Positions 14,658-31,904 of a stretch of DNA of 64,000 nucleotides are shown piece by piece (position 1 is the first letter of the stretch; each line of letters opens with the position of its first letter). The translations under genes and the position numbers were made by a program. The stretch covers positions 1-64,000 of the forward strand of contig JAJZXW010000015.1 in assembly GCA_021806225.1 (NCBI GenBank), read 5' to 3'. The notes under the pieces were generated by a model that saw only the letters and a program-made list of their open reading frames with translations, had not been told where the DNA came from and made no database searches. Source of the DNA: Nitrospirota bacterium (GTDB lineage Bacteria > Nitrospirota > Leptospirillia > Leptospirillales > Leptospirillaceae).

Positions 14658-14687
14658 CTTTTAAGGAAATTGTATCATTGTTTATTC

Positions 14688-14703
14688 TGGCATGAAGTGT
14701 GCT
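14688..14703 (+). promoter_or_regulatory. Candidate sigma-54 (-24/-12) promoter of the chemoreceptor gene
   Basis: TGGCATGAAGTGTGCT keeps the essential GG and GC pairs at the correct distance of the TGGCACG-N4-TTGCW consensus and differs at two other positions. Transcription would start near 14715, about 70 bases before the ATG at 14784. It is a weaker match than the one in front of dabB. Confidence 0.4.
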
Positions 14704-14783
14704 TGGCACCATTGGTTTTTGCAGGGACCCCCCCCGGCTACGGAAACAAAGACGCCCCGAACACCGATCCTATGGAGAAGAGC

Positions 14784-15872
14784 ATGAGAGATCTCCCGTT
14801 TCCCGGGCTTTCCCCGGAGCGCGCTTCTCCTCCTGTCGTGCCTGGCAACGAAGGCGCGACAGGAGGACTCGAAGGAATTCTTGCGGCCTGCCCCGGGTGC
14901 GCCGGGAAAATTCTCGACGCGATCCAGTCCGACGGGGTCGCGCTGGCCACCACCGAACCCGGAGCGGGGAAGGAGGGGAACCATATCGTCTACATGAACC
15001 GGAAGATGAAGGAGATTCTCCTGAAAATGTCCGGCGATCTCGAGAGCCAGTACGGGCTCTCCCCGGATTCCGTTCCGGGAGCCTCCATCCACCGGTTCCA
15101 CAGGGATCCCGCCCGCATCCGGACGATTCTGGGCGGACTGGAGCCAGGGGAAACCCGACGGAACCAGGTCATTCCCGTCGGCTCCATGCGGTTCCGGTCG
15201 GTCAGCGAAGTCCTGATCGATGGAACTGGCCGCCGCATCGCTTACCTGACGGTTTTCACCGACATCACCTCCCTTGCGCACCTGGAAGATGTTTCCGCGG
15301 AATCCACCATGATTGCCCGAATGACGGAAGATCTCGGCGCGAAGGTGTCCGCCCTTTCGGCAAACGCCGACTCAGGCCGGGAGACCATCTTCCGCATGGT
15401 CCGGGGGGTGGTCGAGAACGAGGAGTTGATGAAGGCGCTCGTGCAGGAGGTGGAAGTCCTCGGGAGCCGCTCCGAAGAGATCGGAACCGTTGCCGGAACG
15501 ATCGGCCAGATCGCTTCGCAAACCCGGCTCCTGTCCCTGAATGCCGCGATAGAGGCGGCCCGGGCCGGCCGGGAGGGCCGGGGGTTCTCCGTCGTGTCCG
15601 ACGAGGTCCGGAATCTCGCAGAGAGGACGGCGGCAGCCACGAAGGAGATAGGCTCGATGATCCGGAGGGTGCAGGAAGAGATATCGAGGACGGTCAGCCT
15701 CATCTCCGAAGGGCTTTCGCGATCGTCGGGGAACCGGGAGCTGGCCATCCGGACGGAGGCGGTGTTCGATGCGGTCCGTGAGGAAAACCGCCGCTTCCTC
15801 GAGGCCATCGCCGATATCGACCGGGCGGCTGCCCGGCAGGAGCGCTCCATCCGGAGTTTCCTCGCGGAGTGA
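14784..15872 (+). CDS. Soluble PAS-containing chemoreceptor
   Basis: A cytoplasmic methyl-accepting-chemotaxis-type signalling protein of 362 residues. No membrane segment is present. The N-terminal part (after a CPGCAGKIL segment) looks like a PAS domain with [12 protein letters not shown] and a return strand near [11 protein letters not shown]. The C-terminal coiled coil carries the receptor tip: [20 protein letters not shown], then [16 protein letters not shown]. The ATG at 14784 is preferred to one 12 bases earlier because GGAGAAG lies seven bases before it. It is short for a receptor, so signalling may be reduced to the tip region. No che genes are nearby. Confidence 0.8.
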
Positions 15873-17890: not shown

Positions 17891-17940
17891 CGTTCCATCG
17901 GGACCCTCTTCCGATCGTGCATTTCCGCTCGCTCCGCGAA

Positions 17941-17979
17941 TTTCGCACATGGATTTTCAATGCGGATCGTCATGTGAAA
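17941..17979. promoter_or_regulatory. Inverted repeat upstream of the dabB promoter
   Basis: Arms TTTCGCACATG (17941-17951) and CATGTGAAA (17971-17979) form an interrupted dyad with a CACATG/CATGTG core. It lies roughly 40-75 bases upstream of the -24 element, within the range used by sigma-54 enhancer-binding proteins. Assignment as an activator site is inference. Confidence 0.4.
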
Positions 17980-18015: not shown

Positions 18016-18031
18016 TGGCACGGATAATGCT
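18016..18031 (+). promoter_or_regulatory. Sigma-54-type -24/-12 promoter for dabB-dabA
   Basis: TGGCACGGATAATGCT matches the sigma-54 consensus TGGCACG-N4-TTGCW at every fixed position except one (A for the first T of the -12 element), with correct spacing. It lies in a locally AT-rich stretch. Transcription is expected near 18042, leaving a leader of about 97 bases. Confidence 0.65.
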
Positions 18032-18087
18032 AAAAGGGATTCGCCAGATTGTGGAACACCGGATCCTCGGGGTTTCGAAAAATATCC

Positions 18088-18113
18088 GGGATCCGGCCTT
18101 CTGTCCGGATCCC
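18088..18113 (+). other. Stable leader hairpin before dabB
   Basis: A perfect 9-bp stem (GGGATCCGG, 18088-18096, with CCGGATCCC, 18105-18113) and an 8-base loop lie in the predicted dabB leader, about 25 bases before the start codon. No T run follows, so it is not a terminator. It may stabilise the transcript or affect translation. Confidence 0.45.
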
Positions 18114-18138
18114 TCCACTCGATATCATGGAGTCCGTC

Positions 18139-19797
18139 ATGACTGACAAAATTGCCACCCTCGCCGCGGGGCTCATGTTCGTCACCCCGTGGCCGCTCCT
18201 GGCCTCGGGCCTTCTTTTCGGCTTCGGGGCCGACCGACACCCCCGCCTTATGCGGAGGATGGTGGCCGGCTCCGCGTGGTTCGCCCTTCTCAGCGCGGTC
18301 GCTGCCGCAATGGCCTACGCTCAGGGGCTGTCCCGGCCGTATACCTATTTCTCATCCGTTCTTCCGGACAACCTGGGCGTCTTCAGGATCGACATCGCCG
18401 TCAACGCCCTCACCATCGTCATGCTTCTCCTGGTGGCCTTCGTCGGGATGATCGTCTCCCGCTACTCCTCCACCTACATGGACGGAGACCGGCGGGAGGG
18501 ACGCTTCCACAAGTGGCTTGCCCTCACCCTGGGATCCTTCTTCACCCTGATCGTGGTCGGCAACATGTGGGCCTTCCTGCTCTCCTGGATCGCCACGAGC
18601 CTGTTCCTCCACGAACTGCTGGCCTTCTACCGGGAGCGGCCGGGAGCGGTGGTCGCCTCCCGCAAGAAGTACCTGCTCCACCGGATCGCGGATGCGAGCC
18701 TGCTGGGGGCGATCATCCTCATCGTGCGGACCCTGCACACCTCGGACTTCTCCGGACTGGCCTCCGGACTCTCCTCCCTTCGGGGACCCCTGCCGGGATC
18801 CCTGCTCGTCGCGGGCGGCCTGATCGTCCTGGCGGCGATCCTGAAGAGCGCCATGTTTCCCTTCCATGGATGGCTCATCCAGGTCATGGAGGCCCCCACG
18901 CCGGTTTCCGCGCTCCTGCACGCCGGGATCATCTATACCGGGGCCTTCCTGCTCCTGCGGATGAGCCCGCTCCTCACTCCGGAAGACGGACCGAGGGACG
19001 CCCTGGTCCTGTCGGGCCTTCTCTCCGTCGCTCTGGCCTCCCTGATGATGATCACGGAGACGAACATCAAGGAGTCGCTGGCCTATTCGACCTGCGCCCA
19101 GATGGGATTCATGCTGATGGAATGCGGCCTCGGCCTCTACAGCCTGGCGGTGATGCACATCGTCGCCCATTCCGTCTACAAGGCCCACGCCTTCCTGGCG
19201 TCGGGAAGCGTCGTCGACCACTTCCGGGCGCCGGCTCTTCCGCCGTCGTCGCGGATGGCCTCGGGCTTCCGGGCCATTGCAGGACTCTTTGTGGGGGCCG
19301 GCATGACCTTCGCCATAGGAAGCGCCTTCGGGATCGGGTTCCGCCAGCAGCCGGCCCTGATCGTTCTGGGCGCCGTCCTGTCGGTCGCCGTGACGCAGCT
19401 GATGCTACCGGCCCTCGACGCGCGGCATGCGGGCACGGGAAAGCTCCTCTTCTGGACGGGGGGGATGAGCGCGGCGGTCTGTGCCGCCTATTTCGGCCTC
19501 CACAGGCTTTTCGACCTCGTTCTCGGAGGGAGCCTGCCCGCCGCGACATTCCCGGAAGATCCCTTCCAGGAAGGGATTCTGGGGGCGATCATGGCCGTCT
19601 TTCTGGGCCTGCTCCTCGTCCAGCAGATGCTTCCGAAGATCTTCGGGTCGCCCTTCTGGAGGGGCGTCTATGTCCATCTCTACAACGGATTCTACATCGA
19701 TATCGTCATCGCCAGGATGGTGGGCCGCCCCATGGCGGAACGCCCCGCCAGACAGCCCCGTCCGTCCCGGCCCAACCATAGCGAGGTGCTCCCATGA
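18139..19797 (+). CDS. dabB: DabB, membrane subunit of the inorganic-carbon pump
   Basis: A 552-residue polytopic membrane protein of the NuoL/MrpA proton-conducting family. It retains the antiporter core, for example a Lys in LKSAMFPFHGWLIQVMEAPT, the following PVSALLHAGIIYTGAFLL and ESLAYSTCAQMGFM. In the DAB system DabB is thought to pass protons or another cation to drive CO2 hydration in DabA. It is not part of a complex I operon here; it is joined to dabA by an ATGA overlap. The ATG at 18139 is chosen because GGAG lies about six bases upstream; a second ATG 12 bases earlier lacks that. Confidence 0.9.
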   Translation: MTDKIATLAAGLMFVTPWPLLASGLLFGFGADRHPRLMRRMVAGSAWFALLSAVAAAMAYAQGLSRPYTYFSSVLPDNLGVFRIDIAVNALTIVMLLLVAFVGMIVSRYSSTYMDGDRREGRFHKWLALTLGSFFTLIVVGNMWAFLLSWIATSLFLHELLAFYRERPGAVVASRKKYLLHRIADASLLGAIILIVRTLHTSDFSGLASGLSSLRGPLPGSLLVAGGLIVLAAILKSAMFPFHGWLIQVMEAPTPVSALLHAGIIYTGAFLLLRMSPLLTPEDGPRDALVLSGLLSVALASLMMITETNIKESLAYSTCAQMGFMLMECGLGLYSLAVMHIVAHSVYKAHAFLASGSVVDHFRAPALPPSSRMASGFRAIAGLFVGAGMTFAIGSAFGIGFRQQPALIVLGAVLSVAVTQLMLPALDARHAGTGKLLFWTGGMSAAVCAAYFGLHRLFDLVLGGSLPAATFPEDPFQEGILGAIMAVFLGLLLVQQMLPKIFGSPFWRGVYVHLYNGFYIDIVIARMVGRPMAERPARQPRPSRPNHSEVLP

Positions 19798-22286
19798 AGA
19801 TCGTCGACAGAAGCGAAGCGAATCTGGCCCCGAAGGTCGAGGCGGCCTGCAGTCTGATCGCGCCCCTTTGGCCGCTCAAGAATTTCGTGGCCGTCAACCC
19901 CTATTTCGGCCTGGCCGACCAGCCCTTCTGGCAGGCCGGCGCGATTCTCGAGAGGGTCGCCGGACAGGGTCTCGCCATGCCCCGGGAATACTATCTCGAG
20001 CAGGTCAGGAACGGCCGCATCACACGGGAAGATTTCGCGGCCGCCCTCCGCGAGCTGGGGAGCAACTGGAACCTCGATTCCTTCGACCGGGAATTGGCCA
20101 GGAAGGACGGGGCGGGACCCGTCCGGCTCGCCCTCCTGAGCGACGTTCTCGGATCGATCGACCGGCAGGACTGGTCGGGGTTCGTGGTGGAACGGATCAG
20201 CCAGTACTGCGCCGCCTACTTCGACGAGGGACAGGCGATGTGGACCCTGCCCTGGAAGAAAGCCTCGCTCTACGAGGGGTGGCGCGAGTATGCCGCCCTC
20301 GACAAGAGTTCCTGGATGATGGGGCTCCGGGGCATGGCCCGCCAGGCGGCCGCGCTTCCGCGCACCTCCGGGGAAGCCATTGCCTGGGCGCTCGATGTGC
20401 TTTCGGTTCCCCAGTCCGCGGTGGCCGGCTATCTCCATGCCTCCCTCCTCAGCATCGGAGGATGGGCGGGGTGGGCGCGCTACCGGCGCTGGCAGGCCGA
20501 ACTCAAAAAGGAGCAGGACGACACGATCCGGGAGCTGCTCGCCATCCGTCTTTCGTGGGACGCCCTTCTCTACAGGGTGCGGGAAAACACGTTCCTGGTC
20601 CGCAAATGGCAGGAGGCCCTCGCTGAAGCCGCAGTCCCTGCGGGACTGGCCGATCCGGCTCACAATGTGGACGCCGTGCTGCAGACCGCCCTGGAACTCG
20701 GATACCGGAAGCGGCTGATCGGAACCCTGTCCTCCGCGAAGCCCTCCAGAATTCCGGAGGGCCGAAGCGCGGCCCAGGCCGTTTTTTGCATCGACGTCCG
20801 GTCCGAGATCTTCCGGCGTGCGCTCGAAACGGTCGCCCCGTTGGTCCGGACGCACGGCTTCGCCGGCTTCTTCGGCGTTCTGGTCGAGTTCCTGCCCTTC
20901 GGCGCGGCCGAAGCCAAGGGCCATCTTCCCATCCTCTTCAACCCGTCCTACCGCGTGCGGGAGGTTCCGTCCGGAATGTCCGAGTCGGAGTCAAAGGAGA
21001 TGGCGGCCCAGAGGCACCACCGGATCCGGGCGTCCCATGCCTGGAAGGCCTTCAAGACCTCGGCCGCCTCGTGCTTCTCCTTCGTCGAGTCCTTCGGTGT
21101 CCTGTCGATCGGGAAGCTCGTCGGAGACAGCATGGGATGGAGCCGGCCCGTCCCCCATCCCGACCGGAAGGGGCTAAAGGAACACGAGTCCGGCCGTCTG
21201 ACGCCGACACTGAGCGCCGTCCGGAACGGGACGGGGTCCGGGAAGGAGACTCCCGGAAGCGGGATCCCCGAATCCGACCGGCCCGCCGTCGCCGAATTCG
21301 CCCTCCGCAACATGGGGCTGATCGGGGATTTTTCCCGGCTGGTCCTTCTGGTCGGCCACGGAAGCACGACGGCGAACAACCCGCAGGCCACGGCCCTCGA
21401 CTGCGGAGCCTGCGCGGGACAGACCGGAGAGGCGAGCGCCCGGATCGCGGCGGCGCTCCTGAACGATCCGGTCACGCGCAGGGGACTGGCCAAAAAGGGG
21501 ATCGCGATTCCCGACGATACCTTTTTCGTCGCCGGCCTGCACGATACCACCACCGACGAGGTGACTCTCTATGACACGGAGAGCATTCCCCCCTCCCACG
21601 ACGCCGACATCCGGCAGCTTGAAGGATGGCTGGACGCGGCGGGGGAGATGACCCGGATGGAGCGGGCGGTCTTTCTGGGGACGGGCGATCTTCCCTCCCG
21701 TGACGTCGCCGCGGATGTCCGGCGGCGGACGCGCGACTGGGCCGAGGTCCGGCCCGAATGGGCCCTGGCCGGCAACGCCGCCTTCATCGCGGCCCCGCGG
21801 AGCCGGACCGCCGGATGCGATCTGGGGGGCCGGGCCTTCCTGCACGACTACAACTGGCGGAACGATTCCGGGTTCGCGACCCTTCAGCTGATCATGACGG
21901 CCCCGATGGTCGTGGGGAACTGGATCAACATGCAGTACTACGGCTCCATGGTCGACAACTTCCGCTTCGGGAGCGGCAACAAGGTCCTTCACAACGTGGT
22001 CGGAGGATCGATCGGGGTTCTCGAGGGAAACGGGGGGGACCTGCGCGTCGGTCTGGCGATGCAGTCTCTTCACGACGGGAGGCGCTGGATCCACGAGCCC
22101 ATACGGCTGAACGTCGTTGTCGAGGCGCCGCAGGAGGCCATCGACGATGTGATCGGGCGCCACGCCCTGGTCCGGAACCTCATCGAAAACGAATGGATCT
22201 TCTTCTTCCGGATCGACGACGACGGGAGCCTCTTTCGCCGCGCGTCCGGGGGGCAATGGCTTGAGATGTCCGGAGTCGGCGCCTGA
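19794..22286 (+). CDS. dabA: DabA (DUF2309), zinc subunit of the inorganic-carbon pump
   Basis: An 830-residue protein with a beta-carbonic-anhydrase-like zinc site. The ligands known from Halothiobacillus DabA appear as FCIDVRSE (Cys332, Asp334), LVGHGS (His522) and LDCGAC (Cys537, with Cys540 close by). The N-terminal APLWPLKNFVAVNPYFGL and the C-terminal LRVGLAMQSLHDG are also typical of the family. With DabB it should hydrate CO2 to bicarbonate vectorially at the inner membrane, raising internal carbon for autotrophy. No transmembrane helix is obvious; the family is peripheral. Its stop is followed after 26 bases by a DUF6671-like gene. Confidence 0.95.
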   Translation: MKIVDRSEANLAPKVEAACSLIAPLWPLKNFVAVNPYFGLADQPFWQAGAILERVAGQGLAMPREYYLEQVRNGRITREDFAAALRELGSNWNLDSFDRELARKDGAGPVRLALLSDVLGSIDRQDWSGFVVERISQYCAAYFDEGQAMWTLPWKKASLYEGWREYAALDKSSWMMGLRGMARQAAALPRTSGEAIAWALDVLSVPQSAVAGYLHASLLSIGGWAGWARYRRWQAELKKEQDDTIRELLAIRLSWDALLYRVRENTFLVRKWQEALAEAAVPAGLADPAHNVDAVLQTALELGYRKRLIGTLSSAKPSRIPEGRSAAQAVFCIDVRSEIFRRALETVAPLVRTHGFAGFFGVLVEFLPFGAAEAKGHLPILFNPSYRVREVPSGMSESESKEMAAQRHHRIRASHAWKAFKTSAASCFSFVESFGVLSIGKLVGDSMGWSRPVPHPDRKGLKEHESGRLTPTLSAVRNGTGSGKETPGSGIPESDRPAVAEFALRNMGLIGDFSRLVLLVGHGSTTANNPQATALDCGACAGQTGEASARIAAALLNDPVTRRGLAKKGIAIPDDTFFVAGLHDTTTDEVTLYDTESIPPSHDADIRQLEGWLDAAGEMTRMERAVFLGTGDLPSRDVAADVRRRTRDWAEVRPEWALAGNAAFIAAPRSRTAGCDLGGRAFLHDYNWRNDSGFATLQLIMTAPMVVGNWINMQYYGSMVDNFRFGSGNKVLHNVVGGSIGVLEGNGGDLRVGLAMQSLHDGRRWIHEPIRLNVVVEAPQEAIDDVIGRHALVRNLIENEWIFFFRIDDDGSLFRRASGGQWLEMSGVGA

Positions 22287-22312: not shown

Positions 22313-23215
22313 ATGGGGCAGGGACAGCGCACAAAGGGCTTCGAACCGGGCTCGCTCTATGCGGGAGAGCGCGTGGCGCTTCTCACGAAGCACGGGAAGG
22401 AGGGGGTGATCGCTCCCGTTCTCGAGCCCGGGTTGGGCTGCAGGATCGACCGGGTCTCCGGATACGACACCGATCTTCTGGGAACTTTCACCCGGGAGAT
22501 TCCCCGGGACGGGACCCAGATCGAGGCTGCCCGGAAAAAGGCCCGCATCGGGATGGATCTGTCCCGGATGCCCCTGGGACTGGCCAGCGAGGGCTCCTTC
22601 GGTCCCGATCCAGTCCTGGGTGCGGTTTCATGGAACGTGGAATGCCTCGTCTTCATCGATGACCGCCTGGGAATCGAGGTCTCCGGATGGTCGCAGGGCG
22701 AGGCGCGCTCCGGACACCTCCTGGCCGAAGACTGGGGGGCGGTCCGAGAGTTCGCCCTCCGGGTGGGGTTCCCGGACCACGGGATGGTGCTTCGTCCCGG
22801 GGGAATGCCCGGGGAAGAGCCCGGGGAAGAGAATGACATGCGGATCCGCAAGGAGATTCCGGACTGGACCGCCCTCGAGGGGGCCTTCCGGGAGTCGCGC
22901 TCCCTCTCCCCATCGGGCCGCGTCTTTCTCGAGATCGACCTCCGGGCCCATGCCAACCCGACGCGCCGGGAGATGATCCGACGGGCCGCGGAGAATCTTC
23001 TTGAAAAAATCCGGTCCCTCTGTCCCTCCTGCGCTTTGCCGGGATTTTCTATGGTCGAGCTTGTGAAGGGACTCCCCTGCGCAGACTGCGGCTCTCCCAC
23101 CAACGAGGTCCGGGCGGAGGTCCACGGGTGCCTGAAATGCGCCCACAGGGAGGTCCGGGAGCGGTCCGGCCCCGGGAAGGGCAATCCGCTTTACTGCGAT
23201 TACTGCAATCCGTAG
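22313..23215 (+). CDS. DUF6671-like zinc-ribbon protein
   Basis: A 300-residue protein of a family I recognise as DUF6671: [50 protein letters not shown] and [11 protein letters not shown]. The C-terminal third carries four CxxC-like pairs (CPSC, CADC, CLKC, CDYC) that probably bind zinc. The start follows GGAGGGGGT closely. The position immediately after dabA, in the same direction and with a short gap, suggests shared expression and possibly a link to carbon metabolism; the activity is unknown. Confidence 0.6.
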
Positions 23216-23271
23216 GGATCGGGGGATTTCCGGTCCGCCCGATTCTTTTTTCCGGAAAGGAAGCGCAACGC

Positions 23272-24951
23272 ATGTCGGACAATCGAAGGAGCCGGGTGAC
23301 GACCCAGGGGGTGGAGCGATCGCCCAACCGGGCCCTTCTTCGCGCCACGGGGTTCGGGGACGGGGATTTCGGGAAGCCCGTCGTGGGGGTGGCGAACGGC
23401 TACAGCACCATCACCCCCTGCAACATGGGGCTGGGCGAACTCGCGATCCGCGCCGGCGAGGGCCTCAGGAGGGCGGGCGCCATGCCCCAGGTCTTCGGGA
23501 CGATCACCGTCTCCGACGGGATCTCCATGGGGACGCCGGGAATGCGGTACTCCCTGGTCTCGCGCGAAGTGATCGCCGACTCGATCGAAACCGTATGCAA
23601 CGCCCAGAGCATGGACGGAGTGCTCGCCCTGGGCGGCTGCGACAAAAACATGCCGGGGGCGATGATCGCCATCGGCCGCCTCGACATTCCGGCCATCTTC
23701 GTCTACGGGGGGACGATCCGTCCGGGACGCTACGAAGATCGGGACCTGACCATCGTGAGCTCCTTCGAGGCGGTCGGCGAATATTTCGCGAACAGGATCG
23801 ACGGGGGGGAGCTTCTCGAGATCGAGCGGCGGTCCTGTCCCGGAATCGGGTCCTGCGGGGGAATGTACACCGCGAACACCATGGCCTCTCTCTTCGAGGC
23901 CATGGGCATGAGCCTTCCCTATTCCTCCACCATGGCCGCGGAGGATCCGGAAAAGGCCCTGAGCGCGGAAAGATCCGGGGAGGTTCTGGCCGGCGCGATA
24001 CGAAAGCAGATCCTTCCCAGCCGCATCCTCACGCGCGAAGCCTTCGAAAACGCGATCGCCGTGACGATGGCGGTCGGTGGGACTACCAACGCTGTCCTGC
24101 ACCTTCTGGCCATCGCCCGGTCGGTGGGCGTTCCCCTTTCCATCGACGATTTTTCCGCGATGCGCGAACGCGTTCCGGTCCTGTGCGACCTCAAGCCCTG
24201 GGGGCGATTCGTCGCCACCGACCTTCACCGGGCCGGCGGCATTCCCCAGGTCATGAAGATCCTCCTTTCGCAAGGTCTCTTGCATGGGGAAGCCCTCTCT
24301 GTGACCGGCCAGACGATCGGAGAGCTCTTGAACGGCCTGTCGCCCGACCCTCCGAAGAACCAGGAGGTCATCCGGCCCTTTCAGAACCCGGTTTTCGAAC
24401 GGGGCCATATCGCCATTCTTCGGGGGAACCTCGCTCCGGAGGGGTCGGTCGCAAAGGTGACGGGCTTCGACCGCCCGCTCTTCGTCGGGACGGCGCGCGT
24501 TTTCGATTCGGAAGAGTCCTGCATGGAGGCCCTCCGCTCCCGCAGGATCGCCGAAGGCGACGTCGTCGTCATCCGCTACGAGGGTCCGGTCGGAGGTCCG
24601 GGAATGCGCGAGATGCTTTCCCCCACCGCGGCCCTGGTGGGGGAAGGGCTCGGAGACAGCGTGGCCCTGATCACCGACGGACGATTTTCCGGGGGAACCC
24701 GGGGCATGGTGGTGGGTCATGTGTCCCCGGAGGCCGCGGTCGGCGGACCGATCGCCCTGGTCGTCGACGGGGACAGGATCACGCTGGACGCGGAGAGGGG
24801 ACTCCTCAGGCTCGACGTTCCGGAGAGGGAGATCGCTCGGCGAAGGGCCGCGTGGCGGCCTCCGGCCCCGCGCGCCATTCGGGGTGTTCTGGCCAAGTAT
24901 GCCAGACAGGTCTCCTCGGCGAGTCTGGGAGCCGTAACGGATTGCTTCTGA
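23272..24951 (+). CDS. ilvD: Dihydroxy-acid dehydratase
   Basis: A 559-residue iron-sulfur dehydratase of branched-chain amino acid synthesis; it turns dihydroxy-isovalerate into 2-oxo-isovalerate and the isoleucine equivalent. Family marks are the cysteines in TPCNMGL and [33 protein letters not shown], and the C-terminal [20 protein letters not shown]. The ATG at 23272 follows AAAGGAAG at a usual distance. It is 56 bases after the DUF6671-like gene. A weak dyad (ATCCCGG/CCGGGAT near 24979-25003) follows and may reduce read-through into tsaC. Confidence 0.95.
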
Positions 24952-25072: not shown

Positions 25073-26053
25073 ATGATTTCCCCGGATATCGCCTCGGCAG
25101 TCGATCACCTGAAGCGGGGATTCACGGTCGTCTTCCCCACGGAGACGGTCTACGGGCTGGGGGCGGACGCCATGAACCCGAAGGGGGTGGAGCGCGTCTT
25201 CGCCCTCAAGGGCCGTCCGCGCGACCGTCCCCTGATCGTTCATATCGAGGGGCTTTCCCGCCTTGAAGAGTGGGCGGAGGAGATTCCCGAAGGGGCCAGA
25301 AGGCTTGCGGAGCGGTTCTGGCCGGGTCCCCTGACCCTCGTCCTTTCCTGCCGCCGGGAGATTCCCCGGCTCGTGACGGGAGGACGAGACACCGTCGCCG
25401 TCCGGGTTCCGGACCATCCCGTCGCGACCGCTCTTCTGCGGGCCTTCGGAGGGGGTCTCGCGGCCCCTTCGGCCAACCGCTTCGGACGGCTTTCCCCGAC
25501 CGCGAGCTGGCATGTCCGGGAGTTCTTCGGGGACGAGGCGGGCCCGATCCTCGAAGGAGGACCCTGTTCCACCGGGGTGGAGTCGACCATCGTCGGCTTT
25601 TCCGGGGATCGACCGACCCTTCTGCGTCCCGGGACGGTCTCCGCCCGGATGATCGAGGAGTTCCTCGGCCTCCGGATCCTTCGCGCCGGGGCGGAAGAGG
25701 AAGGGGCTCCCCTTCCCGGCTCGGGGGAGAGCCATTATGCGCCATGCACCCCGCTCGAGCTCCTTCCCGCGGAGGCGCTCCGGAGCCGACTCCTCTCCCT
25801 GACCTCCCGGGGAGACCGGGTGGGTGTCCTGGCCCTTTCCGAGTGGGGGGACCTGTGCGGACAAAGGGAGGTGACGCTCCTTCCAATGTCCCGAAAGGCC
25901 CCGGAGTATGCTCGGGAGCTCTATGCCGCCCTGCATGCCCTGGACCGGGGCGGGCTCGGCCGGATTCTGGTCGAGGCGCCACCGGACGGGGAGGCCTGGG
26001 GGGCGGTGAACGACCGGCTGAAACGCGCAAGCCATCATCCGGGGGGACGATGA
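25073..26053 (+). CDS. tsaC: L-threonylcarbamoyladenylate synthase, long Sua5 type
   Basis: A 326-residue protein that makes threonylcarbamoyl-AMP for the t6A37 modification of ANN-decoding tRNAs. The YrdC core has PTETVYGLGADA, KGRPRDRPLIVH, APSANRFGRLSPT and GVESTIVGF. A C-terminal Sua5 extension (about 200-326) follows a linker with SGESHYAP, as in Sua5 rather than short TsaC. AAGGAG precedes the ATG, and an extended -10-like TGGTAAAAT at 25046-25054 lies very close. The stop overlaps the histidine kinase start. Confidence 0.9.
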   Translation: MISPDIASAVDHLKRGFTVVFPTETVYGLGADAMNPKGVERVFALKGRPRDRPLIVHIEGLSRLEEWAEEIPEGARRLAERFWPGPLTLVLSCRREIPRLVTGGRDTVAVRVPDHPVATALLRAFGGGLAAPSANRFGRLSPTASWHVREFFGDEAGPILEGGPCSTGVESTIVGFSGDRPTLLRPGTVSARMIEEFLGLRILRAGAEEEGAPLPGSGESHYAPCTPLELLPAEALRSRLLSLTSRGDRVGVLALSEWGDLCGQREVTLLPMSRKAPEYARELYAALHALDRGGLGRILVEAPPDGEAWGAVNDRLKRASHHPGGR

Positions 26054-28062
26054 CCCCGGAGCCCTCTTTACACGGAGATCCATCCATGGCCCCTGGCGGG
26101 ACCCATCCCTTTCCTCCCGGCTTCGACTTCTCCGTCTTCTCCTCCCCCTCGGGGGATCCGAAGGAGTTCCCGATCGGGATCGCCATCTTCGACGCCCGGG
26201 GAGAGGCCCTTTTTCTGAGTCCGTCCTATCGGGAAATCCTCGATGGCCTCACCCTGTCGGAGCCGGGGAGTTCTCCGGCCCCCATCCGCGAGGTGCTGCT
26301 CTCCCTGGCCACCGCCCGGGGTTCATCCGGAGAGCGCAGCGTTCGTCTTTCTGCGACCGATCCCGGAGGGGTCCAGCACCTCGTCCTGTGCCAGCTCTTC
26401 GGTCTTCCGGCCGCCCCCGGGGACGGGGAGAGGTGCCTGGTCCACGTCCAGGACGTGACGGGGCTCGTCTCCCTCGCCCGGGAAACCCTCGAGGTGGGGC
26501 GCTACCAGGAGGTGCTGGGAAAGATCGCCCACCTGGCCGTGAGCGGGGCCTCGATGATGGATGTGGCGGACTTTTCGGCCCGGGAGACGGCCCGGGCCCT
26601 GGACGTCGAATTCTGCAAGATTCTCATTCCGGCGGACTCCGATCCGCTCCTTCACCTGCTGGCGGGGGTGGGCTGGCGGGAAGGGCTCGTGGGAACCTAT
26701 GTCCAGGAGGGAGGGTTCCATTCCCAGGCGGGCTTCGCGATCCGGGAGCGGCGGCCGGTCGTCGTGGAGGACCTCCATTCCGAACGGCGCTTTTCCCCGT
26801 CGACACTGCTCTCGGAACATCGCGTCCGCTCGGGAGTGAGCGTTCCGATGATGTTCCACGACCAGGTCCTGGGCGCCATGAGCATCCATACCCGGGCCGT
26901 CCGGCGATTCGGGGAGCGGGAGATCGCCTTTCTCGAGACGGTGGCCAATACCGTCGCGACCATACTCGACCGGTGGAAGCGGGAAGAGGTCCAGCTCTCC
27001 CTCTACAACCGTCTCTTCGCCCAGCTTCAGGACGGAGTGATCCTGACCGACGCCCGGGGAGTGATCCACGAATGGAACCCCGCCATGGAGCGGATATCGG
27101 GCTGGACCCGGCAGGAGGCGATCGGCCGGACTCCCCGGATTCTTTCCTCCGGACGCCAGTCTCCCGAGTTCTACGACCACCTCTGGGGCACCCTCCTGTC
27201 GGGGAAGCCCTTCACGGGCCGCTTCATCAACCGGAGAAAGGACCAGAGCGAATTTCTCGTCTGGGAGAACATCAGCCCCGTCATGGATCCCGACAATACG
27301 ATCCGGCATTTTCTCGCCATCCTGACCGATCTCTCCGAAAGGGAAAAGCTTCTCGAGGCGCTGCGGCACATGGAGCAGATCAAGCTGGTCGGCCAGCTGT
27401 CCGGGGGGCTGCTCCATGAAATCCGCAACCCCCTGATCGGGATCGGGAGCCTGGCCGACCATATCGGCAAGTCGCGGGAGCTTTCCGATCCCCTTCGCCG
27501 TCAGGCCGTCCTGATTTCGAACGAGGCCCGCCGGATCGACGCTCTTCTGGAATCCCACCTCTCCGTCCTTCGGCCGAAGACCTTCGAGTTTCAACCGCTC
27601 GTCCTGGAGGAACTTCTCCGGGACGCCGAATCCCTTCTCCAGCAGACCTTCCGGAAAGGGGGCGTCCGCTTCGTCCTGAATCGCGAGGGGGATATCCCTC
27701 TGGTCGAGGGGGCCCAGGGGCCCCTCCAGCAGGTCTTCCTCAACCTGATGATGAACGGACTCGACGCCATGCCGGGAGGCGGGGTTCTCGCCGCCACGAT
27801 CGTCGCCTCTCCCCTCAAGGGAAGGGACGGGGTGGCCGTTCTCATCGAGGATACGGGCAAGGGAATTCCGGAAGCGCTATTGAAGCGCCTCCACGAACCC
27901 TTCTTTACACACGGCAAGGCCAAGGGGGTCGGTTTGGGGCTCCCCATCACGCGGGACATCGTCGAACGGCATGAGGGGCAGATCACGATCGAGAGTCCCC
28001 CGGGCCGGGGGGTGAGGGCGACGGTCTGGCTCCCGGTCAAACAGGAGGGAAGACAAGGGTGA
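26050..28062 (+). CDS. Soluble PAS/GAF sensor histidine kinase
   Basis: A 670-residue cytoplasmic kinase without membrane segments. Order: a weak PAS-like segment (about 30-140), a GAF domain (about 160-310, with GFAIRERRPVVVEDL and SVPMMFHDQVLGAMSIH), a PAS domain (about 315-440, GVILTDARGVIHEWNPAMER), then the kinase core. The H box is LLHEIRNPL with His456; the N box is LNLMMNGLDAMPGGG, the G boxes are EDTGKGIPE and GVGLGLPITRDIV. The start overlaps the tsaC stop (ATGA); an ATG at 26086 is an alternative. It is coupled to an NtrC-type regulator downstream. Confidence 0.9.
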   Translation: MTPEPSLHGDPSMAPGGTHPFPPGFDFSVFSSPSGDPKEFPIGIAIFDARGEALFLSPSYREILDGLTLSEPGSSPAPIREVLLSLATARGSSGERSVRLSATDPGGVQHLVLCQLFGLPAAPGDGERCLVHVQDVTGLVSLARETLEVGRYQEVLGKIAHLAVSGASMMDVADFSARETARALDVEFCKILIPADSDPLLHLLAGVGWREGLVGTYVQEGGFHSQAGFAIRERRPVVVEDLHSERRFSPSTLLSEHRVRSGVSVPMMFHDQVLGAMSIHTRAVRRFGEREIAFLETVANTVATILDRWKREEVQLSLYNRLFAQLQDGVILTDARGVIHEWNPAMERISGWTRQEAIGRTPRILSSGRQSPEFYDHLWGTLLSGKPFTGRFINRRKDQSEFLVWENISPVMDPDNTIRHFLAILTDLSEREKLLEALRHMEQIKLVGQLSGGLLHEIRNPLIGIGSLADHIGKSRELSDPLRRQAVLISNEARRIDALLESHLSVLRPKTFEFQPLVLEELLRDAESLLQQTFRKGGVRFVLNREGDIPLVEGAQGPLQQVFLNLMMNGLDAMPGGGVLAATIVASPLKGRDGVAVLIEDTGKGIPEALLKRLHEPFFTHGKAKGVGLGLPITRDIVERHEGQITIESPPGRGVRATVWLPVKQEGRQG

Positions 28063-29492
28063 ACGTTCTGCTCGTCGAAGACGAATCGTCAATCCGGGAG
28101 GCCTTCGCGCTCCGTCTCTCCGAAGGGGGCTATGTGGTCCAGACGGCCGGGAGCGGCGAGGAGGGGCTGAGCCTCCTGCAGACCTCTCCTCCCGACATCC
28201 TGGTTCTGGACATGGTGATGCCCGGCCTCTCGGGCATCGACCTCCTGAAGGAGGTCCGGTCGGCCGACCTCGAGATCCCCGTCATTCTTCTCACGGCCCG
28301 GGGAACCGTCAAGGACGCGGTGGAGGCGATGCGGCTCGGGGCCTTCGACTTCGTGACGAAGAACATCGACATGGACGAACTCTTCCTCTCCCTCGCCAAC
28401 GCCTCCCGGTTCCTCTCCCTCGCCCGGGAGGCCCGCTACTGGACCGGACGGGAGTCGGGGCGCTTCGCCCTCGAGCGGATGATCGCAAAGAGCCAGGCAG
28501 GGGCGGGGCTCCGCCAGCAGGTGGTCGACCTTGTCGAAAACGACCGGGTGACCGTCCTTCTCCAGGGAGAGACGGGGACGGGGAAGGAGTATGTGGCCAA
28601 GGTCCTCCACTACAACGGACCCTCGGGCGACCGCCCCTTCATCGAGGTCGACTGTCCGGCCATCCCCTCGGAACTCTTCGAAAGCGAACTCTTCGGGTAC
28701 GAAAAAGGGTCCTTTACGGGAGCCGCCGGCCGACGGATCGGGCTGGTCGAGCTGGCGGAAGGGGGAACCGTGCTGCTCGACGAGATCGGGGATCTCCCCC
28801 TGCCGCTTCAGGCCAAGCTTCTCAGGGTGATCGAGGAGCGGACCATCCGCCGGGTGGGGGGCGGTGCTCCCTTCCCGGTGAACGTGCGGTTCATGGCGGC
28901 CACTCACCGGGACTTGCGGGTGGCGGTCCGGGAAGGCCGCTTCCGGGAGGATCTCTATTATCGCCTCAATGTCGTGACGCTGGCGATCCCTCCTCTGCGG
29001 GAGCGGCGCGAGGACATCGTCCCCATCGCCGAACGCTTCCTCCACCAGTCCTCCCAGACCTTCCGGAAAAAGATCCTCCGGATCTCCCCCGCCGCACAGA
29101 AGCTTCTTCGCGACTATTCCTTTCCGGGAAACATCCGGGAGCTCTCCAATATCATCGAGCGGGCGGTCCTGTTCTGCTCGGGCCCTCAGCTCGAGGTGGC
29201 CCACTTTTCGGCGGATCTCAGCCGGGGAGGCTTTCCCCTTCTGGCTCCCGCTCCCCCGGAGGATTCTTCCGATCCCGGGACACTTCCCCTCTCCTTCCGG
29301 ATGGGGGGGGACACTCTGGAGGGATTCGAACAGAGGCTGATCCGGGAGATCCTTGTCAGGACCGGAGGAAACAAGACCCGGGCGGCGGAGATTCTGGGGA
29401 TCAGCCGGTGGGCCCTCGACCGCCGCCTCAAGGGCGGCGTCGAGGAGGATCTGGCGCAGAGCCCCGCCGCGGGGAAGGAAAAAGCCAAGTGA
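28059..29492 (+). CDS. NtrC-family sigma-54-dependent response regulator
   Basis: A 477-residue regulator of three domains. The receiver has acidic VEDE and phospho-acceptor Asp51 in LVLDMVMPG. The AAA+ domain has Walker A GETGTGKE, the sigma-54 contact loop as GSFTGA (Ala to Ser relative to the common GAFTGA, a tolerated variant), [13 protein letters not shown] and the R-finger region [12 protein letters not shown]. The C-terminal Fis-type helix-turn-helix is [20 protein letters not shown]. The GTG start overlaps the kinase stop. This is the only sigma-54 activator in the window, so it is a candidate regulator of the promoters at 18016 and 14688, though it may act elsewhere. Confidence 0.9.
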
Positions 29493-30600: not shown

Positions 30601-31605
30601 TTAGTTCATGGCCTTGATGATGGCGTCGGCGTACTGGTCGGTCGAGGCGGTGCCTCCGGCGTCGTAGGTCAGGGTCTTCCCTTCCGCCAGAACCTTGTTC
30701 ATCCCCTTCTCGATCTTGTCCGCCGCGGCATTCTCACCCACCCAGCGAAGCATCATGACTCCGGACAGAAGCACGGCCGATGGATTGACCTTCTTCATGC
30801 CCGCGTATTTCGGAGCCGATCCGTGGACCGCCTCGAAGATGGCGCAGTTGTCGCCGATGTTGGCTCCCGGAGCGAAGCCGAGGCCTCCCACCAGTCCGGC
30901 GCAGAGGTCGGAAAGAATGTCTCCGTAGAGGTTGGGCAGGACCAGGCAGTCGAACTGTCCAGGATTCCTCACGAGCTGCATCGAACAGTTGTCCACGATG
31001 ATGTCCCCGGATTCGATCTCGGGGTACTTCTTCGCGACTTCCCGGAAGGCCTCGAGGAAAAGACCGTCGGTCATCTTCATGATGTTGGCCTTGTGGACGC
31101 ACTGGATCTTTTTGCGGCCGTTGGCCTTGGCCCACTTGAAGGCGAACTCGGCGATCCGGTAGGAGCCCGGCCAGGTGATGACCTTGAGGCACTGGGCGAC
31201 CTCGTCGGAGACCATGTGCTCGATGGCGGCGTAGGAGTCCTCGGTGTTTTCCCGGAAGGTGAGGATGTCGATCTTGTCCCAGGGGCGCTTGAGCACGGGG
31301 ATGAGCTTGGCCGGACGGACGTTCGCATAGAGGTCGAACATCTTCCGGAGCGTCACGTTGGCGCTCTTGTGGCCAGTGCCGATCGGCGTGGTCGTGGGGC
31401 CCTTGATGGCGAGCTTGTTCTTCGCGATCGACTTGATCGTCTTTTCGGGGAGAAGGGTCCCGTACTTGTCGAGGCAGTCGAGGCCGATGTCCTCGTACTC
31501 CCAGACGATCTCCACGCCGGTGTGGTCGATGATCCTGCGGACCGCTTCGCAGATCTCCGGTCCCGTTCCCTCTCCGGGAAGCATCGTGATGACATGTTTG
31601 CCCAT
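30601..31605 (-). CDS. icd: Isocitrate dehydrogenase (short, isopropylmalate-dehydrogenase fold)
   Basis: A 334-residue decarboxylating dehydrogenase. RENTEDSYAAIEH marks isocitrate rather than isopropylmalate as substrate; metal and substrate residues lie in VHKANIMKMTDGLF, NLYGDILSDLCAGLVGGLG and EAVHGSAPKYAG. Length and motifs resemble NAD-type enzymes; cofactor choice is not proven by eye. It catalyses isocitrate to 2-oxoglutarate, or the reverse in a reductive TCA cycle. GGAGGT precedes the ATG. It is followed by the C-terminal-domain-like gene. The shared intergenic region with hflX carries several dyads. Confidence 0.9.
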   Translation of the reverse strand: MGKHVITMLPGEGTGPEICEAVRRIIDHTGVEIVWEYEDIGLDCLDKYGTLLPEKTIKSIAKNKLAIKGPTTTPIGTGHKSANVTLRKMFDLYANVRPAKLIPVLKRPWDKIDILTFRENTEDSYAAIEHMVSDEVAQCLKVITWPGSYRIAEFAFKWAKANGRKKIQCVHKANIMKMTDGLFLEAFREVAKKYPEIESGDIIVDNCSMQLVRNPGQFDCLVLPNLYGDILSDLCAGLVGGLGFAPGANIGDNCAIFEAVHGSAPKYAGMKKVNPSAVLLSGVMMLRWVGENAAADKIEKGMNKVLAEGKTLTYDAGGTASTDQYADAIIKAMN

Positions 31606-31904
31606 CTTTTGAAACCTCCATTCGTCTTTTCATTCCACAGCTGTCCCCGATCCTTTCCTCATTGAAAGGAGGGCGTCGAGGTGTCATAGCAATTCGTATG
31701 CCTGAAAAGGTTTTGTTGTAAATTGTCCATTATGAAAGATAAATATTTTATTTGAAGGGTCGCCTCCGTCGATGCGTGCGGAAACGTTACGCAGAAAACG
31801 CACAAAATGAATGAATGTGTGCGAAAAATATCAATGAAAGGGCGGTCTCTCTCCGGCCGTTCGAACCGGTTCGAAAAGCGTCCGGAGGGAGAAACGGGGT
31901 ATGA
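31606..31904. other. icd-hflX divergent intergenic region with dyads
   Basis: No gene. An AT-rich part (31690-31760) probably carries the leftward icd promoter; candidate hexamers such as TTTACA with a weak -10 17-18 bases on can be picked, none strong. Dyads: CGCACA (31799-31804) with TGTGCG (31818-31823), and a perfect 16-bp palindrome described separately. A short repeat of AATG occurs at 31806-31817. Confidence 0.5.
31860..31875. promoter_or_regulatory. Perfect 16-bp palindrome upstream of hflX
   Basis: TTCGAACCGGTTCGAA is fully self-complementary and ends 29 bases before the hflX -10 box, placing its centre near -49. It is a good operator candidate for a dimeric regulator. Confidence 0.5.

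Follow-up and report, generated by a model that had tools for sequence, protein, structure and literature searches.

DAB pumps take up inorganic carbon and consist of a membrane subunit, DabB, and a full-length catalytic subunit, DabA, whose genes share one operon. No pump of this kind is, to our knowledge, established to be controlled by sigma-54; the original prediction, which placed a sigma-54-type promoter in front of a dabB gene, made the same statement, and a literature search for dab together with sigma-54 or RpoN likewise found no published example. A described operon with the gene order considered here is the ‘och operon’ of Leptospirillum sp. CF-1, in which a NuoL-like gene (DabB), a DUF2309 gene (DabA), a gene for a hypothetical protein and a dihydroxy-acid dehydratase gene are followed by sua5 (PMC9080137). 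RT-PCR showed the first four genes to be co-transcribed, sua5 not being part of the transcript, and chromate induced them 2.8-12.5 fold at 15 min and 7.8-23.5 fold at 30 min (PMC9080137). The operon was published as a chromate and oxidative-stress operon, with DabB annotated as NuoL and DabA as a DUF2309 protein; its promoter, sigma-54 and its identity as a carbon pump were not considered (PMC9080137).

The window, i.e. the whole stretch of 64 kb analysed here, comes from a genome of 1.43 Mb (67% complete) of the Leptospirillum family. The members of this family are iron-oxidising bacteria. The following genes are found in it, in the order of the och operon:

18139-19797, forward strand: dabB, encoding the pump's membrane subunit (PF00361/PF00662), overlapping dabA by 4 bp
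19794-22286, forward strand: dabA, catalytic subunit (PF10070 over its full length, E 2.8e-275)
22313-23215, forward strand: gene of a DUF6671 protein (PF20376), by position the counterpart of ABH19_09595 of the och operon (PMC9080137)
23272-24951, forward strand: ilvD-like dihydroxy-acid dehydratase gene, by position the counterpart of ABH19_09600 (open reading frame in conserved order, name from PMC9080137)
25073-26053, forward strand: sua5-like gene, overlapping the likely start of the kinase gene by 4 bp (open reading frame in conserved order, name from PMC9080137)

A PF10070 DabA thus lies beside a NuoL-like DabB, the combination by which DAB pumps are recognised, and by family the dab structural genes are a carbon pump. 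By this comparison the och operon, published for its induction by chromate, would encode a carbon pump too.

The region ahead of dabB contains the promoter element from which the analysis started, and a leader follows from it:

18016-18031, forward strand: sigma-54 -24/-12 element of the dab operon, TGGCACGGATAATGCT (found by pattern scan, kept in relatives)
18042-18138, forward strand: predicted mRNA leader of about 97 nt, its start placed 12 bases past the GC on the basis of the promoter class

The element had been described as almost perfect, and this was borne out: TGGCACGGATAATGCT departs from TGGCACGNNNNTTGCW by a single mismatch, with the GG at 18017-18018, the GC at 18029-18030 and an exact N10 spacing, in the TGGCAY / TTGC context of this promoter class, and it is the sole match with at most one mismatch on both strands of the 64 kb, where shuffled versions of the window gave a mean of 0.20. 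When the 300 bp upstream of dabB were shuffled with dinucleotides preserved, none of 2000 sequences contained an equally good match with GG/GC fixed. A gene for RpoN, the presence of which was to be checked, is found in the source genome (PF04552, E 9e-63, 210.6 bits). The -24/-12 element ahead of dabB is therefore confirmed as real and, judged from these sequence features, its assignment to the sigma-54 promoter class is near certain. Elsewhere on the forward strand, TGGCATGAAGTGTGCT at 14688-14703 has one mismatch to the sigma-54 box if Y is accepted at position 6; it lies about 80 bp ahead of a possible internal start in a chemotaxis-receptor-like ORF (14670-15872).

Conservation of the GG and GC pairs in orthologous upstream regions had been proposed as a check. 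In a quick tree the DabA proteins of the window type (lineage a) and of the b type form separate lineages, and GG-N10-GC was found upstream of dabB in all 13 readable loci of these two lineages, in 12 Leptospirillum-family genomes; these loci share ancestry and are not statistically independent, several of the genomes are fragmentary, and the dabB upstream regions of G005 and G009 are nearly identical. The 13 boxes have at most two mismatches to TGGCAYGNNNNTTGCW and, counted from the dabB start, lie at -87 to -130, the odds of obtaining a match of this quality in shuffled sequence being 0.002-0.011 per locus, and outside the box the upstream sequences of the family diverge widely. These data bear on the alternative that dab is transcribed by sigma-70 and that the -24/-12 match is incidental. 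A sigma-70-like pair, ATAACA-18-GATAAT, does overlap the promoter region, but it fits at 9 of 12 positions, for which 0.4 occurrences are expected by chance, and the preservation of GG/GC and of their spacing in every lineage a and b locus counts strongly against an incidental match, so that we regard this alternative as very improbable indeed. The interpretation that dab is under sigma-54 control is supported.

A third DabA lineage, made up of the second copies of G015 and G019, groups with Proteobacteria in the same quick tree. No -24/-12 box is present upstream of these second dab copies (L120 and L126) and the lineage is also without the regulator pair described below, as expected of a separately acquired copy. 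In lineage a, dabA is followed by the DUF6671 and ilvD-like genes (22313-24951 in the window), and in G015 both genes also occur near the second, box-less dab copy (L120); this suggests that they are linked to DAB. DAB pumps of other phyla differ from those of the family: about 65 readable dab upstream regions contained no convincing -24/-12 element before dabB, one match with two mismatches (L059) and a few with three being near chance expectation, and no close homologue of the regulator was found near about 75 dab loci of other phyla in the fetched flanks, some of which were short.

Two further elements of the original prediction are borne out as sequence but not supported as functional parts. 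An inverted repeat able to give the 9-bp leader hairpin is indeed present at 18088-18113, but the leader has a folding z-score of -0.41 against shuffles, and a significant fold was seen in none of the leaders of 10 relatives; a functional fold is not upheld. Rfam yielded nothing above threshold, its two matches having E values of 0.31 and 0.66. The upstream dyad at 17941-17979 (TTTCGCACATG / CATGTGAAA) also exists, but conservation is limited to its left arm and it is not supported as a functional part. What is conserved near it is a pair of operator-like sites:

17916-17931, forward strand: distal operator-like site, degenerate, CGTGCATTTCCGCTCG (best-scoring upstream 16-mer, with its centre about 92 bp before the -24 box)
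17934-17949, forward strand: proximal operator-like site, CCGCGAATTTCGCACA, which includes an exact half-site TTTCGCACA at 17941-17949 (assigned by half-site and position)

The relatives have either a palindrome close to TGTGCG-N4-CGCACA or tandem half-sites, 70-105 bp upstream of the -24 box, with site centres at 69-103 bp. Their distal-type TGTGCGN4CGCACA-like sites are at -91 to -94, and in several of them there are sites at -69 to -75, comparable to the proximal site of the window. In the window, G005 and copy a of G001, two weaker sites are separated by 18-20 bp, and in G016 a strong site is paired with a weaker one at a distance of 19 bp. Several relatives have better sites than the window, where both dab sites are imperfect, and a 16-bp matrix built from the relatives fails to single them out, the distal site ranking third and the proximal one falling outside the top 25; the basis of the operator claim for the window is therefore the half-site together with the position of the sites.

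The same combination of box and half-sites occurs before a second gene, further downstream and on the other strand:

30601-31605, reverse strand: icd, encoding an NAD-type isocitrate dehydrogenase and transcribed towards the kinase-regulator pair (named from sequence by eye)
31688-31703, reverse strand: sigma-54 -24/-12 element of icd, AGGCATACGAATTGCT (window scan, conserved in 15 family genomes)
31776-31833, reverse strand: operator-like half-sites before icd, TTTCGCACA (31818-31826), TGTGCGTTTT and TTTCCGCAC (motif scan)

In the window TTTCGCACA occurs twice, once ahead of dabB and once ahead of icd, where 0.24 occurrences are expected. A box of the form GGYAY-N5-TTGC accompanied by several of the same half-sites precedes icd in 15 of 17 genomes, the window included. 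The two exceptions, with neither a correctly spaced box nor half-sites upstream of icd, are G017, which has no regulator pair, and G016, whose icd sits on another contig and could have lost its box through a rearrangement that had nothing to do with the regulator. Among the relatives read, nearly all have icd convergent with the regulator gene. Searching 242 kb of related family DNA for boxes with at most one mismatch and GG/GC fixed returned 13, of which seven belong to dabB, six to icd and none to any other place; this is a measure of local rather than genome-wide specificity, because the DNA was fetched around dabB and icd. The strict palindrome GTGCGN4CGCAC with a GG-N10-GC within 250 bp downstream is found seven times in 21 genomes, six times at dabB and once at icd, and in G015, the genome of which is a single contig (99% complete), the strict palindrome by itself occurs once, at dab. 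A 19-base pattern that matched the dab and icd boxes alone in the window was discarded and is not counted as evidence, because it was designed after both boxes had been seen. Genus g3 has a globin-like gene pointing away from icd (L195 1736-2179; also L117, L118 and L119), and the intergenic region common to both genes holds the operator-like sites. The name icd and the role of the enzyme in the reductive TCA cycle are taken from the sequence and from published statements on Leptospirillum. In L. ferrooxidans the NAD-dependent isocitrate dehydrogenase gene showed the strongest induction of all genes in planktonic cells (>20 fold), which its authors read as more carbon fixation (PMC2996932); we infer that this gene is the same icd as here.

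Between dab and icd lies a pair of genes that could supply the activator required by a sigma-54 promoter:

26050-28062, forward strand: sensor histidine kinase with GAF, PAS, HisKA and HATPase domains (orthologues 66-92% identical)
28059-29492, forward strand: NtrC-type response regulator with a receiver, an AAA+ domain with GSFTGA and a Fis-type HTH (PF00072, PF00158 and PF02954, all over cut-offs)

That the promoter might be tied to a phosphorelay had been a guess, which gains strength now that the cluster is seen to encode both a histidine kinase and an activator of the NtrC family. The kinase contains no strongly hydrophobic segment (hydropathy maximum 1.26 over 19 residues) and is probably cytosolic. 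Since sua5 of CF-1 is outside the dab transcript, kinase and regulator may be transcribed separately from the pump genes. Regulator orthologues were found in 17 of 21 family genomes and are more alike between genomes (71-92% identity) than the accompanying DabA proteins (47-73%); the other four genomes (G003, G010, G017 and G018) have no canonical DabA either. The pair directly follows dabBA in G004, G007, G008, G011, G015, G019, G020 and at dab copy b of G001, the DUF6671-ilvD-sua5 stretch is placed between dab and the pair in the window, G013 and G016, and in G002 and G012 the pair is at contig ends with dab outside view.

The pair resembles NtrB-NtrC and AtoS-AtoC in its receiver-AAA+-Fis HTH regulator, its PAS-type kinase, the upstream sites and the -24/-12 promoters, and differs from them in its targets, a carbon pump and icd, and in the predicted loop for sigma-54 contact, which reads GSFTGA in place of GAFTGA, without variation in 16 regulator sequences. 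The GSFTGA variant occurs in other activators. Conservation of the regulator is lower at its DNA-binding end than in the AAA+ domain, which counts against the reading given below. Among NCBIfam models the regulator matches AtoC and NtrC best and the kinase AtoS, and the closest solved structures to the regulator are those of NtrC-family regulators; because its scores are far below the curated cut-offs (380 versus 558.6 bits for NtrC, 429 versus 714 bits for AtoC), the regulator is neither NtrC nor AtoC by those models. It is the likely activator of the dab promoter, as far as linkage and domain content can tell.

The main rival for this role is NifA, because it is widespread in the family and its motif is similar: NifA-type activators bind TGT-N10-ACA, and NifA-controlled nif promoters combine such an upstream motif with a -24/-12 element. 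If NifA, or another activator acting via TGT-N10-ACA, drove the sigma-54 promoter of dab, carbon uptake would join the nitrogen-fixation programme. Of 21 family genomes, 19 encode NifA-like proteins scoring over the curated cut-off, and the nifH upstream regions of G001 (L218), G004 (L225) and G009 (L222) contain TGTCC-N6-GCACA together with a -24/-12 element, an arrangement like that of the dab operator. Most matches to looser gapped patterns were again at dabB and icd; the others were at nifH, within coding regions or, in a few cases, at intergenic places without a counterpart in other genomes; the nifH matches are read as probable NifA sites. Details of the motif, gene linkage and co-occurrence nevertheless favour the linked regulator for dab. 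The repeated TTTCGCACA half-sites are common to dab and icd, whereas one side of the nifH sites reads TGTCC; it is the kinase-regulator pair, not nif genes, that is linked to dab and icd, and it is missing where canonical DabA is missing; and G017 has NifA, yet its icd is devoid of motif and box. Control by NifA thus appears improbable to us.

The promoter elements, the shared motif, the gene order, the co-occurrence and the protein domains are, very probably, best explained by a sigma-54 dab promoter with the linked pair as its most likely activator and icd as a co-activated gene. The kinase would phosphorylate the regulator, dimers of which would bind the TGTGCG-N4-CGCACA-type sites (17916-17949), some 70-105 bp upstream of the -24 box. 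The bound regulator would then reach the promoter by looping of the AT-rich spacer and open it at the expense of ATP, allowing RNA polymerase with sigma-54 to transcribe the dab operon from 18016-18031. The same pair would activate icd through the -24/-12 element and half-sites of that gene (31688-31833, reverse strand), by which inorganic-carbon uptake would be coupled to a reductive TCA cycle enzyme, isocitrate dehydrogenase. A local regulon, in which the pair activates its two neighbours dabBA and icd, is the most economical reading of the region, and carbon uptake appears to be turned on jointly with fixation, given the shared promoter type, the shared motif and the linked regulator.

As to what the kinase might respond to, we put forward, tentatively and at somewhat less than even confidence, that this two-component sigma-54 system senses the supply of inorganic carbon or a proxy of it (2-oxoglutarate, redox) and switches the DAB pump and icd together. 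GAF and PAS domains, both present in the kinase, can be redox sensors, and the chief competing candidate for the signal is redox or metal stress: regulation would be as proposed above, with oxidative or metal stress in the place of carbon, in line with the view of the authors of the och operon study. The 2.8-23.5 fold rise of the homologous CF-1 operon with chromate suggests that the signal may not be carbon (PMC9080137). Against this stand the pump family of the structural genes, the central carbon enzyme icd as second target and the reading of the L. ferrooxidans isocitrate dehydrogenase induction as carbon fixation (PMC2996932), and the effect of chromate may be indirect; we hold a stress signal to be rather unlikely.

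If sensing of carbon supply by the pair is true, the system would be the carbon counterpart of the NtrBC nitrogen switch, and autotrophs with the reductive TCA cycle would have a carbon-acquisition switch of their own, built like the nitrogen switch. Such a switch would need a phosphorylated activator and ATP, and would place uptake and an enzyme of the fixation cycle under one command. For Leptospirillum, a main biomining organism, the analysis yields a defined regulator, an operator-like motif and two candidate target promoters.
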